Below, piece by piece: positions 10,637-14,904 of a stretch of 64,000 bases of DNA (position 1 is the stretch's first letter; every line of letters begins with the position of its first letter). The position numbers and the translations under genes were made by a program. Under the pieces are notes generated by a model. It saw only the letters and a list, made by a program, of their open reading frames with translations. It searched no databases and was not told the origin of the DNA. The stretch comes from Bacteroidales bacterium. Lineage in GTDB: Bacteria > Bacteroidota > Bacteroidia > Bacteroidales > UBA932. The stretch is taken from the NCBI GenBank assembly GCA_015060205.1, contig SUYY01000003.1:20719-84718 (forward strand). Reading direction: 5' to 3'.

Positions 10637-11323
10637 ATGGACAGAAAAATCCTTATTGTTGACGATGAGGCGGATATCCGCGATATTCTTCAGTTCAATC
10701 TTGAAAATGCCGGTTTCAATGTGGAATGTGCCTCATCTGCAGAAGATGCTCTGGAAATGCTCTCAGACAGGCATAGTCTTATACTTCTGGATGTGATGAT
10801 GCATGGCATGTCCGGTTTTCAGATGGCCACCCTGCTTCGTGAACGAGGCAATCTTACTCCTATCATATTCCTGACCGCCAAGGATACCCAGGACGATCTT
10901 CTGACCGGGTTTTCTGCCGGTGCTGATGATTATATCCCGAAGCCATTCTCCATTCAGGAGGTGATTGCAAGAGTCAATGCTGTCTTGAGACGTAGCGAGG
11001 CTGTGTCTCTTCTGTCATCGAGCAAGGATGTGGTGAAGGTAGGAAAAGTGGAGATAGATGTGCAGAAGAAGACGGTGACTGTGAACGGTGAGCAGGTCCA
11101 GTTTTCCAAGAAGGAGTTCGAGATTCTCAACATGCTTGCTTCCAATACAGGAAAGATATTCTCCAGAGACGACCTCATTACAGAACTCTGGAAGGATGCT
11201 CCATATGTCCTGGACAGGACTGTGGATGTGCATATTGCGAGAATACGTTCAAAACTCGGCGAGTGCAAGGCTTATCTGACAAACCGTTCGGGTTATGGTT
11301 ATACCTTCAATTCTGTGGACTGA
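10637..11323 (+). CDS. OmpR/PhoB-type response regulator
   Basis: The 228-residue protein has a receiver domain with the acidic pair DD (9-10), phospho-acceptor D52 in LLDVMM, T80 and K102 (PKPF). The C-terminal winged-helix DNA-binding domain has a recognition region VLDRTVDVHIARIRSKLG and ends in GYGYTF. It pairs with the histidine kinase that starts 1 bp after its stop. The overall form is that of PhoB, but no regulon can be read from the window. The upstream -7 box is TACATTTG at 10608-10615. Confidence 0.93.
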   Translation: MDRKILIVDDEADIRDILQFNLENAGFNVECASSAEDALEMLSDRHSLILLDVMMHGMSGFQMATLLRERGNLTPIIFLTAKDTQDDLLTGFSAGADDYIPKPFSIQEVIARVNAVLRRSEAVSLLSSSKDVVKVGKVEIDVQKKTVTVNGEQVQFSKKEFEILNMLASNTGKIFSRDDLITELWKDAPYVLDRTVDVHIARIRSKLGECKAYLTNRSGYGYTFNSVD

Positions 11324-11324
11324 T

Positions 11325-12119
11325 ATGGTGTTCTTATGGTTATTCATCATAGCGGTGGTGACAATCATTCTTGTCGTCACCCTGCTTATGCGCTATCTCA
11401 AAGAAGAAAATATCAGAAGCAGCAAGAAGAATACATTGCTGAAGAAGCAGATGACCAGCAATATCGCGCATGAACTCAGGACTCCCGTCACAAGCATACG
11501 CGGATATCTTGAGACTCTCCTCGCATGTCCTGATATGCCTCAGGAAAAAAAGAAAGTCTTTCTGGAGAGGGCCTACAACCAGACACTGCGTCTTTCGGAA
11601 CTGATAAGCGATATGGCGCTGATAAGCAAGATAGAGGAGAAATCTTCCAATTTCAAGAAGGCGGAAATTGATTTCTATGATGTTGCCAAGGAGGTCTTCG
11701 ATGAGTTCAGTGAAAGGACCGCTTCCGGAGGAATCACGGTGGAGAATACTGTCATGCCCGGATCCATGATGACGGCAAACAGGACCCTCATATATTCGAT
11801 ATTGAGAAATCTTGTGGAAAACAGTCTCAAATATGCAGGTCCGCAAGTGACAATACATCTGGAAAGTTTCTATATACCGTCTGACAAATGCTACTACATG
11901 ACATATTATGACACGGGTGCCGGTGTGCCGGAAGAACATCTGGAACGGATATTTGAAAGATTCTATCGTGTCTCCGAGGGAAGAACCCGTGATGACGGCG
12001 GGTCAGGTCTGGGTCTGTCCATAGTGAGGAATGCAGTGGCGTTCCATGGCGGGAAGATCCGCGTGTCAAACAGGGAAGAGGGCGGACTCCAGTTTCAATT
12101 TACTATAATGAGAGGATAA
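11325..12119 (+). CDS. Minimal PhoR-like sensor histidine kinase
   Basis: I use ATG 11325, directly after the regulator stop; the track start at 11295 overlaps the regulator by 29 bp. The product has 264 residues: one N-terminal membrane helix (WLFIIAVVTIILVVTLLM), then the H-box SNIAHELRTPVTSI (H49). The N-box NLVENSLKYA, G1 YDTGAGVPEEHL, F-box RIFERFYRV and G2 GGSGLGLSIV follow. There is no periplasmic, HAMP or PAS domain, so signal input must come through the single helix or a partner protein. It phosphorylates the upstream regulator by context. Confidence 0.92.
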   Translation: MVFLWLFIIAVVTIILVVTLLMRYLKEENIRSSKKNTLLKKQMTSNIAHELRTPVTSIRGYLETLLACPDMPQEKKKVFLERAYNQTLRLSELISDMALISKIEEKSSNFKKAEIDFYDVAKEVFDEFSERTASGGITVENTVMPGSMMTANRTLIYSILRNLVENSLKYAGPQVTIHLESFYIPSDKCYYMTYYDTGAGVPEEHLERIFERFYRVSEGRTRDDGGSGLGLSIVRNAVAFHGGKIRVSNREEGGLQFQFTIMRG

Positions 12120-12346: not shown

Positions 12347-12376
12347 TTGCAGATGTTAAGAAATGTCCTAAATTTG
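12347..12376 (+). promoter_or_regulatory. Promoter of the thr leader and thrBC
   Basis: TTG (12347-12349), 19 bp, TAAATTTG (12369-12376) is a perfect consensus match. Transcription would start near 12383, only a few bases before the leader-peptide ATG at 12390. Confidence 0.7.
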
Positions 12377-12389
12377 CAACCCGTAACAT

Positions 12390-12500
12390 ATGAAAGTTGT
12401 GATGTATTCTTATCTTTATATAACAGGGATCGGTCTGGGCGTGTCTTACGGCATTTCCACGATTACCGGCATTACAACCATTACCCCTTGGGGGTTATAG
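12390..12500 (+). CDS. Thr/Ile-rich leader peptide of the threonine operon
   Basis: This short ORF is absent from the track. It encodes 36 residues that end in GISTITGITTITPWGL, with six Thr and six Ile overall. E. coli thrL has the same kind of Thr/Ile run and controls threonine genes by ribosome stalling; isoleucine is made from threonine, which explains the mixed content. A good promoter lies just upstream, and the threonine genes thrB-thrC follow. An alternative start is ATG 12402 (32 residues). The last Thr/Ile codons and the stop lie inside a terminator-like hairpin, which supports a leader role. Confidence 0.75.
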   Translation: MKVVMYSYLYITGIGLGVSYGISTITGITTITPWGL

Positions 12501-12509
12501 TTTTCTTTT
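12476..12509 (+). promoter_or_regulatory. Attenuator-like hairpin with U-tract in the thr leader
   Basis: The arms AACCATTACCCC and GGGGTTATAGTT pair with two mismatches around a TTG loop, and TTCTTTTG follows. The 5' arm contains the last Thr and Ile codons, and the stop codon lies in the 3' arm. A ribosome stalled upstream for lack of charged Thr-tRNA would cover the 5' arm and block the hairpin. A segment CTGGGC (12435-12440) can pair with GCCCAG (12522-12527), giving a possible alternative fold. Confidence 0.6.
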
Positions 12510-12664
12510 GTCGTTCTGGATGCCCAGGTTGCATACGACGACGCAGTTTCAACAATCATATTTCAATCAAATGGACCGGTATGCTTATGTCAGGTTCCCC
12601 GATATGTGCCTGAATCGATATCTGCCGGTGACAATGTTTAATAAATCGGACAAAAATTGATAGC
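12501..12664 (+). other. Rest of the thr leader, non-coding
   Basis: Between the leader-peptide stop and thrB there are about 160 bp with no credible ORF and no promoter of consensus type. Several short inverted repeats occur, for example TCGT...ACGA around ATGC/GCAT (12511-12542). The segment is probably transcribed leader. The track ORF 12326-12613 is a shadow frame of the leader. Confidence 0.5.
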
Positions 12665-13612
12665 ATGAAAAAGAATGTCAGGGTCTTTGCACCCGGAACA
12701 GTAGCAAATATGGGATGTGGCTTCGATGTCATGGGTATGACTTTGAATGGTGTCGGCGACATCGTGTCGGTAAGTGTCAGTGAGGGAGACGGACTGGTTA
12801 TAGAGAACAGAAGCAATGTGGAACTTCCGACAGAATTGGATAAGAATGTCATCACTCCGGCAGTCAGGGCATTGATGAAGGAATTCGGCGAGCCGAGGAT
12901 GATCGAAGTGATTGTGGAGCATAAGATTTCTCCGGGCAGCGGTATAGGTTCAAGTGCCGCTTCAAGTGCCGCAGCGGTATACGCCTTGAACGAGGCTCTG
13001 GACTGTCCGTTTTCACCTGAGAAACTCGTGGAGTTCGCAATGGAAGGAGAAAAACTTATCAGTGGCGGAACTCCTCATGCCGACAATGTGGGTCCTGCAA
13101 TCCTTGGCGGTGTCGTCCTGATGAGAGGCTATGAGCCGTTGGATATAGTAAGGCTTCCGGTTCCGGACAATTTCTTCTGTTCGGTAGTGCATCCGGACAT
13201 CATGGTAAGTACCAAGGATGCCCGTGCGGTGCTTCCTAAGGATATCGCATTGAGACTTGCAGTCAAGCAGTGGGGAAATGTGGCAGGTGTGGTGGCCGGT
13301 CTTGCTCTGAAGGATGTATACCTCATAGGCAGAGCGATGGTGGATTCTGTCATAGAGCCGCATCGTAAACGCTTCATCCCAGGATTTGATGAACTTCGCT
13401 CCAAGGTTCTTGCGGGTGGTGCCCTGTCAGTGAACATTTCCGGCTCGGGTCCTTCCGTGTTTGCAGTATCTCCGGACATGGAGACGGCATCTAAGGTAGG
13501 TGAGACCATGAGCCGCCATTTCGCCGATATGGGAATCGGTTCAGACCTGTATGTCGGTACTGTTTCAAATCAGGGTGCCAGAGTACTTAATTCATCACTC
13601 TCATCACGTTAA
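12665..13612 (+). CDS. thrB: Homoserine kinase
   Basis: It phosphorylates homoserine to O-phosphohomoserine for ThrC, in the cytoplasm. The 315-residue GHMP kinase has the N-terminal motif VFAPGTVANMGCGFDVMG, the ATP-binding loop SPGSGIGSSAASSAAA (near residue 90) and the C-terminal GHMP motif NISGSGPSVFAVS. It starts downstream of the Thr/Ile leader peptide and is followed by thrC after 11 bp. The usual partner thrA (aspartokinase/homoserine dehydrogenase) is not adjacent and not in the window. Confidence 0.95.
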   Translation: MKKNVRVFAPGTVANMGCGFDVMGMTLNGVGDIVSVSVSEGDGLVIENRSNVELPTELDKNVITPAVRALMKEFGEPRMIEVIVEHKISPGSGIGSSAASSAAAVYALNEALDCPFSPEKLVEFAMEGEKLISGGTPHADNVGPAILGGVVLMRGYEPLDIVRLPVPDNFFCSVVHPDIMVSTKDARAVLPKDIALRLAVKQWGNVAGVVAGLALKDVYLIGRAMVDSVIEPHRKRFIPGFDELRSKVLAGGALSVNISGSGPSVFAVSPDMETASKVGETMSRHFADMGIGSDLYVGTVSNQGARVLNSSLSSR

Positions 13613-13623
13613 TTCAGAATATC

Positions 13624-14904
13624 ATGAAATATTATAGCACAAGAGACAAGGAAAGGAAGAATCCGTTTTCATTGAAGGATGCCGCCTTCGCCGGACTGGC
13701 TCCGGACGGTGGACTTTTCATCCCGGAACATATCCCTGAGGTGGATATGGACAAGGTTGAGGAACTTGCATCGAAGTCATATGCCGACATGGCGGTTTAT
13801 CTCGCACAGACCGTCTTTGATGACATCCCTGCAGAGGATATGGATGCCCTCGTGAGGGATGCATATGATTTCCCGATAGAACTGAATTCGATTGCTGAAG
13901 GTCTCTACAATCTCGAACTGTTCCATGGACCTACATACGCATTCAAGGATTTCGGTGCCCGTTTCATGGGAAGGATGCTCGGCTATCTTGGTGATGGTGA
14001 GCCTATTACCATATTGGCGGCAACTTCCGGAGATACAGGCAGTGCTGTTGCACACGGATTCTACGGAGTGGATAATGTAAGGGTTGTCATACTTTATCCG
14101 GACGGAAAGGTAAGTCCTCTTCAGGAGGCTCAGATGACCACATTGGGCGGAAATATCCAGCCTTTGAAGGTGGACGGAAACTTCGACGACTGCCAGCGTC
14201 TGGTCAAGACCATGTTCAAGGATGAGGAACTCCGCAGCAAGATACGCATTACTTCTGCAAACTCTATCAATCTTCTCAGGTGGCTGCCTCAGTCATTCTA
14301 TTATTTCTATGCTTATTGTCAATGGAAGAAACGCACTGGCAGAACAGATCCTGTTGTTGTAGTTCCAAGTGGCAACTATGGCAATCTCGCTGCCGGAATG
14401 TTTGCAAAGCGTATGGGACTTCCTGTGGCAGGCTTTGTTGCCGCTTCAAATGCAAACGATGTTGTGCCTGAATATCTGATGACCGGTGAATATCGTCCAC
14501 GCGCGTCAGTTAGGACTGTTGCAAATGCTATGGATGTCGGTGATCCGAGCAATTTCGAGAGGATGCTCTGGCTCTGCAATGACTCTTATGATATGATGAA
14601 GTCGGAGATTCGTGGATATTCGTGCAGCGACTCACAGATTCTCGATGCGATAAAGGACATATATGAGAGTTACGGTTATATATCAGATCCGCATAGTGCA
14701 GTCGGTTATCTCGCTACCAGACATTATTCTTCAGACGGATTCTGGTTGTCAACTGCGCATGCTGCGAAGTTCTGTGAGGTCATAGAACGTGCAATCTCGC
14801 GCATGCCTGAGTTGCCTTCAGGACTTTCGCTTGCGATGAAGCGCGAAAAGCAGTTTACAAGAATTTCCTCTAAGGACAAGGACCTCGTTGACTTCCTCCT
14901 GTAG
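13624..14904 (+). CDS. thrC: Threonine synthase
   Basis: This PLP enzyme converts O-phosphohomoserine to threonine. The 426-residue protein has the PLP lysine in GPTYAFKDFG (K108), the phosphate-binding and SGDTGSA block (AATSGDTGSAVAHGF) and the VPSGNYGN segment. N-terminal MKYYSTRDKERKNPFSLKDAA is typical of the bacterial ThrC type. It is the last gene of the thrB-thrC unit, and its stop codon lies inside an intrinsic terminator hairpin. Confidence 0.97.
   Translation: MKYYSTRDKERKNPFSLKDAAFAGLAPDGGLFIPEHIPEVDMDKVEELASKSYADMAVYLAQTVFDDIPAEDMDALVRDAYDFPIELNSIAEGLYNLELFHGPTYAFKDFGARFMGRMLGYLGDGEPITILAATSGDTGSAVAHGFYGVDNVRVVILYPDGKVSPLQEAQMTTLGGNIQPLKVDGNFDDCQRLVKTMFKDEELRSKIRITSANSINLLRWLPQSFYYFYAYCQWKKRTGRTDPVVVVPSGNYGNLAAGMFAKRMGLPVAGFVAASNANDVVPEYLMTGEYRPRASVRTVANAMDVGDPSNFERMLWLCNDSYDMMKSEIRGYSCSDSQILDAIKDIYESYGYISDPHSAVGYLATRHYSSDGFWLSTAHAAKFCEVIERAISRMPELPSGLSLAMKREKQFTRISSKDKDLVDFLL

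Follow-up and report, generated by a model that had tools for sequence, protein, structure and literature searches.

The region directly upstream of thrB and thrC in the stretch analysed here (64,000 nucleotides of a Bacteroidales genome, the window) carries a real threonine leader-peptide element, whose translation very probably reports threonine shortage. We favor, with a probability of roughly 0.6, the reading that this ribosome-sensed leader controls transcription into thrBC. Its control point would be a hairpin in the last codons of the leader, here called T, and the site at which transcription stops is a prediction. The codons point to threonine as the amino acid that would be sensed first, and to isoleucine as the second.

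All the elements lie on the plus strand. A Bacteroidota-type promoter (-33/-7 type) is present, with TTG at 12347-12349 and TAAATTTG at 12369-12376, and its position predicts a transcription start at ~12383. Directly downstream is a Thr/Ile-rich leader ORF with 6 Thr and 6 Ile (MKVVMYSYLYITGIGLGVSYGISTITGITTITPWGL, 12390-12500), closed by a TAG stop codon at 12498-12500. Its last sense codons (Thr-Pro-Trp-Gly-Leu) form T, ACCCC-TTG-GGGGT, at 12483-12495. After the stop codon comes a U-rich tract, TTTTCTTTTG (12501-12510, 8 T in 10 positions), a candidate termination or pause site for the window's clade. The next genes are thrB (homoserine kinase, 12665-13612; NCBIfam TIGR00191 and NF002288) and thrC (threonine synthase, 13624-14904; TIGR00260), all matched above cut-off. 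The first-pass annotation had described this succession of promoter, ORF, hairpin with U-tract and thrB-thrC, and every part of it is present. A short ORF with clustered end-product codons upstream of biosynthetic genes, one mark of amino acid leader-peptide attenuators, is found here. The genome of the window comprises 2.45 Mb in 89 contigs and is 81% complete. Its thrA is on a different contig, without such a leader.

Two start codons are available to the ORF. ATG 12402, which gives a form of 32 codons (MYSYLYITGIGLGVSYGISTITGITTITPWGL), is more likely the start than ATG 12390, because it is common to the closest relative, L039, and because its spacing from the promoter fits better. This spacing is 25 nt for ATG 12402 and 13 nt for ATG 12390. 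Among relatives, it is ~18-24 nt in most of the thrB clade and 3-14 nt in others. In most of the 27 relatives, the leader ATG comes 3-30 nt after the promoter motif TAnnTTTG, which itself has TTG 22-23 nt upstream of it. Bacteroidota ribosomes largely ignore Shine-Dalgarno sequences.

The leader is strongly conserved across relatives. We gathered ThrB relatives from species genomes and compared their upstream regions. Twenty-seven leaders, in 14 clusters, have a Thr-run ORF that ends in an ACCCC/GGGGT hairpin; 26 of them precede thrB. These ORFs share the same plan and keep their position, and their DNA is quite different. Examples are L039 (...MLFNQYITGIGIGMSYGITTVSGITTITPLGL; ...YGITTVSGITTITPLGL), L050 (...TTTTTTTTTTTPWGL) and the divergent relatives L045 (...TTTTTTITPVGV; ...ITTTITTTTTTITPVGV) and L156 (...TTTTTTTTTTTTPVGVR). 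Conserved codons over variable DNA, upstream of thrB, were the proposed check across Bacteroidales. Their presence supports the original identification of a leader peptide for the threonine operon in a member of the Bacteroidota.

We also searched 393 Bacteroidales genomes with a codon-plus-hairpin pattern (two AYN codons followed by ACCCC, a three-base spacer, GGGG and a stop-like end), with the reversed pattern as control. The pattern matches in 12 genomes, the control in none. Besides the window, nine matches are upstream of thrA (MKVLKFGGTSVGS...) in other Bacteroidales families. Another, L122 of family f106, is the one leader of the 27 that does not precede thrB; its gene has an aspartokinase-like N-terminus. 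L124 has no thr gene nearby. This match and L108 appear unrelated to thr genes and were left out. By its neighbors, the leader is associated with threonine-specific genes: thrB in the window's clade and thrA in other families. Order-wide and family-wide scans with the structure model R1, gave few matches; with only ten candidates scored per genome, a missing match carries no information there. For the thrABC operons of congeners, the start of thrA was located in one of five stretches, and that one has no Thr leader. L040, whose ThrB is 92% identical, lacks the leader, which counts against the favored reading. Judging from this example, loss of the leader occurs in the group.

The CCCC/GGGG of T is invariant in all 25 aligned leaders. 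This proves sequence conservation and is by itself no argument for pairing. Where the loop codon of T is TAG (L120 and L121), Pro is the last residue of the peptide, which stops within the hairpin, yet the hairpin is kept. The conserved entity is therefore the RNA (or the DNA), not the C-terminal peptide. As first described, the last Thr codon lies in the 5' arm. The stop codon, however, is not properly part of the 3' arm: it is beyond the 5-bp core, with its pairing confined to a weak outer extension. Its position also shifts. It is 3-6 nt further on in L156, L158, L160 and L162, inside strand b of the downstream stem P1 (see below) in L146-L148, and beyond the P1 strand in L070.

The U-tract after T is not conserved. 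The 11 nt after the hairpin contain 3 to 9 T across relatives (8 in the window, 9 in L039); they are U-rich in the window and in roughly one half of the relatives, and the tract is missing in several clades. Because of this, and because the stop codon is in or past the hairpin in some relatives, T is not a general intrinsic terminator. The first-pass annotation had taken the hairpin as an attenuator. The hairpin itself, with its invariant GC stem, holds; a general role as intrinsic terminator does not. In the window's own clade (the window and L039), T with its U-rich tract could act as one. The overlap of ORF and hairpin had been considered unusual, and in itself it is not: the 1:2 pause hairpin of E. 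coli trp overlaps trpL. There and in pyrBI, as in the window, the leader ORF overlaps a hairpin melted by the translating ribosome. The differences are that trp has a separate 3:4 terminator, whereas in pyrBI the leader ORF runs through its terminator and UTP is sensed via polymerase speed, not through an amino acid codon.

Comparison of the leaders indicates that a second conserved structure, absent from the earlier description, is present at 12510-12542, directly downstream of the U-rich tract. It consists of the hairpin P3 (ATGC-[CCAGGTT]-GCAT, 12520-12534) enclosed by the stem P1. The 5' strand of P1 is segment b (GTCGT, 12510-12514), and its 3' strand is segment c (ACGACGAC, 12535-12542), for which two registers are possible. 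P3, with the loop C[ACG]AGG[CT], occurs in 27 of 27 leaders, 40-82 nt after ACCCC.

Both stems covary. In alignment A2, made with MAFFT before any model was built, 7 of 15 pairs show two-sided changes and 95.6% of the cells are paired. None of 500 shuffles, which ignore relatedness, matches this, and slid controls, which correct for relatedness, give 40-52%. When 25 leaders are placed on model R1, an alignment biased towards the structure, two-sided changes affect 9 of 15 pairs (64 cells) and 96.2% is paired, with slid controls at 42-53%. P1 has two-sided changes in 4 of 5 pairs (93.6% paired), and P3 in 5 of 6. The window itself carries a compensation in P1, GTCGT/ACGAC in place of GCCGA/TCGGC. 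Folding of the window only gives P3 a probability of ~0.1 and prefers another small hairpin. By eye, several GC-rich relatives (L137, L146-L148, L156, L158, L160 and L162) have a further hairpin, P2, between b and P3, and the Alistipes-like L138-L140 have different P1 strands, CTGCGG/CCGCAG. Rfam, Thr_leader included, gives no leader match at gathering in the window, and a search of six leader loci at E<=1 is negative too. P1/P3 thus adds a previously uncatalogued RNA structure to those in Rfam.

Constrained folding and a search for U-tracts found no conserved terminator after c. Likewise, the interval from 12543 to thrB yielded no hairpin with a U-tract, either in the window or in leaders of its type. 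The swap test of c against downstream sequence is null, and a c:d terminator is rejected as a general feature. The swap tests of the P3 loop and of the T arms against downstream sequence are null as well. The suggestion that regulation may differ from the classical four-segment scheme agrees with these results, as neither a conserved downstream terminator nor a conserved partner for c is found. Other pairings were also discarded. A kissing contact of the AGG loop with the CCU of T is rejected as a general feature, the swap test of the P3 loop against ORF and T being null. The alternative pairing CCCCTAT:ATAGGGG, seen in L042 and L043, is not common to other leaders. The P3 loop as a mimic of the tRNA-Thr anticodon was dropped, since the position after AGG varies between C and T.

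Strand b may have a competing partner within the ORF. Segment a (ACGGCA, 12448-12453) is complementary to it, pairing with TGTCGT at 12509-12514. We compared cognate with exchanged partners in swap tests, with clusters and b strands assigned by hand. A cluster's own c pairs better with b than the c of other clusters in 13 of 14 cases (p=0.0003). The own ORF also pairs better with b than the ORFs of others in 13 of 14 (p=0.0002), and the a:b controls are not significant (p=0.27 for the reversed ORF, p=0.21 for DNA further upstream). The ORF segment that matches b is mostly within or beside Thr codons; in L039 the match has 8 bp (TTACGGCA/TGCCGTAA). In partition-function (equilibrium) folding, a:b reaches at most 0.30, in the window, and ~0 in the others. 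Being weak at equilibrium, it could therefore matter only during transcription. We tentatively take the competition of a:b with b:c as a lead rather than proof.

The mechanism that we propose is the following. With sufficient charged tRNA-Thr, the ribosome would cross the Thr codons, reach the stop codon and leave. T would then form behind RNA polymerase and make it pause; in the window's clade, with the U-rich tract following T, the polymerase would stop. With Thr-tRNA in short supply, the ribosome would stall on Thr codons within ~20 nt of T. It would then lie over segment a and over the ACC in the 5' arm of T, and T could not form. Without T, b would pair with c, and RNA polymerase would continue into thrBC. 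Since a ribosome occupies ~12 nt past its codon (PMC4833913), one stalled at the Thr codons 12474-12485 would lie over the 5' arm of T. The promoter directly upstream of the ORF, the covariation of P1/P3, the cognate-specific a:b and b:c pairings and the invariance of T are in favor of this reading. So are the positionally conserved Thr-run ORFs of divergent relatives, the association with threonine-specific genes and the classical attenuators of congeners described below. The absence of the U-tract after T in several clades, the lack of a conserved downstream partner for c and the weak folding of a:b are against it. Moreover, P1 is transcribed after the polymerase at T has decided, so it cannot be the antiterminator of T. 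As a polymerase that has stopped at T is beyond rescue by P1, two options are left: T acts chiefly as a pause and the decision is made later, or P1 has its role in the read-through RNA.

A later decision is the core of the best alternative, a serious minority possibility. Here T would only be a pause hairpin that couples polymerase and ribosome. The choice would be made afterwards between a:b and b:c, and downstream termination would be Rho-dependent or at an unconserved site. Conservation of T without the U-tract is consistent with this, as are the location of a in or beside Thr codons, its competition for b and the failure to find an intrinsic terminator downstream of c. In L146-L148, with the stop codon in b, a finishing ribosome would mask b. 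As precedents, there is a proposal for some actinobacterial cys leaders and the known case of tna; leader peptides without obvious terminators have been discussed for Actinobacteria (PMC1262725). Against it, roughly one half of the relatives share with the window a U-rich tract right after T, and rut-like sequence is not conserved.

It is rather doubtful, although conceivable, that the thr leaders of Bacteroidales have in P1/P3, with its invariant CNAGGY loop, a new RNA element that acts on the polymerase, the ribosome or a protein. Control would then depend on an ORF-embedded pause hairpin and a dedicated RNA structure, not on an intrinsic terminator. An even less probable proposal makes the leader peptide secondary and P1/P3 an independent RNA sensor or a ligand- or protein-binding antitermination RNA. 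Such a role would suit a loop that is invariant in 27 of 27 leaders while the stems covary, and the lack of an Rfam match. Nevertheless, P1/P3 here always lies behind a Thr-run ORF, though the searches were seeded that way; the element is small, and the data suggest no binding partner.

A textbook four-segment attenuator, in which terminator and antiterminator follow the ORF, is very improbable for the window, where the interval from 12543 to thrB holds neither a hairpin with U-tract nor a conserved partner for c. Exactly such attenuators exist, however, in the congeners L013, L026 and L069. These share with the window the genus, the gene thrB and the Thr-run ORF, but they carry a strong terminator (-13 to -24 kcal/mol) and an ORF-overlapping antiterminator (-18 to -22), whose place is taken in the window by T and P1/P3. 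In kind, therefore, threonine attenuation is ordinary for this group, and the window's variant is a non-textbook form. A single genus contains two architectures, the classical terminator/antiterminator and the ORF-terminal hairpin with P1/P3. Upstream of thrA, L127 keeps T and has a separate terminator-like hairpin downstream (CGCCGAAAAAGGCGTTTTT), which we count for the favored reading, the ribosome-sensed leader with T as control point. By eye, the thrA leaders L126, L128 and L130 likewise show T followed by separate terminator-like hairpins; all four come from Bacteroidales families other than the window's.

Attenuation is textbook in Proteobacteria and, to our knowledge, poorly documented in Bacteroidota. 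The enterobacterial thrL (Rfam Thr_leader) resembles the window in its short Thr/Ile-rich ORF directly upstream of threonine genes and in the presumed sensing of charged tRNA-Thr/Ile. In contrast, the window has no Rfam match and no terminator/antiterminator pair was found in it; its GC hairpin is in the last sense codons, and P1/P3 is additional. The Bacteroid-trp motif (RF01692; PMC2864571) is likewise a candidate for attenuation of amino acid operons in Bacteroidota, but it belongs to another operon and does not match. Leader-peptide clues in Flavobacterium psychrophilum have suggested attenuation for Bacteroidota in other operons (PMC9723704), and B. thetaiotaomicron has sORFs in long 5' UTRs (PMC7366714). 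Our literature search returned no description of this leader in the papers available to it; an earlier prediction in Bacteroidetes is possible in the comparative attenuation survey of Lopatovskaya et al. 2010 (cited in PMC4833913). A threonine leader in several Bacteroidales families would offer a direct system for how ribosome position becomes a transcription decision in Bacteroidota.

Taken singly, the elements of the window are close to chance, and the case from this one sequence is weak. A terminator scan gives 1 site, against 0.7 +/- 1.0 expected, and the folding of the segment with T does not surpass that of shuffles (z -0.14). Of 2000 dinucleotide shuffles, 32 (1.6%) contain an ORF with 5 or more Thr in 16 codons, and 2 (0.1%) contain one that has at least 4 Ile as well. 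These statistics and the leaderless L040 would suit an ORF and a hairpin that arose by chance in a 5' UTR, but the comparative data refute this with near certainty, through cross-family conservation with codon-level variation and through covariation. The leader is beyond chance because Thr-run ORFs are conserved at the same place in relatives and because the pattern matches number 12 in 393 against none for the control.

Two neighboring features were noted. A PhoR-like histidine kinase of only 274 aa (11295-12119) adjoins PhoB (10637-11323). It matches only the C-terminal positions 350-582 of the 583 in the Bacteroidota PhoR model, below the cut-off, so its sensor part is short or missing. On the minus strand, 12215-12124 is a probable small RNA of ~85 nt, with the promoter TACCTTTG, a strong terminator (GAGACGTCCCCGCGAGAGCGGCGAAGTCTCATTTTTTTTT) and a fold z of -2.28; it has no Rfam match at gathering. 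L040 retains this small-RNA sequence upstream of its thrB. Of 151 genomes of the genus, 126 contain this sequence, each with 1-3 copies whose locations differ, and its 42-nt core (12209-12168) is identical in many of them.
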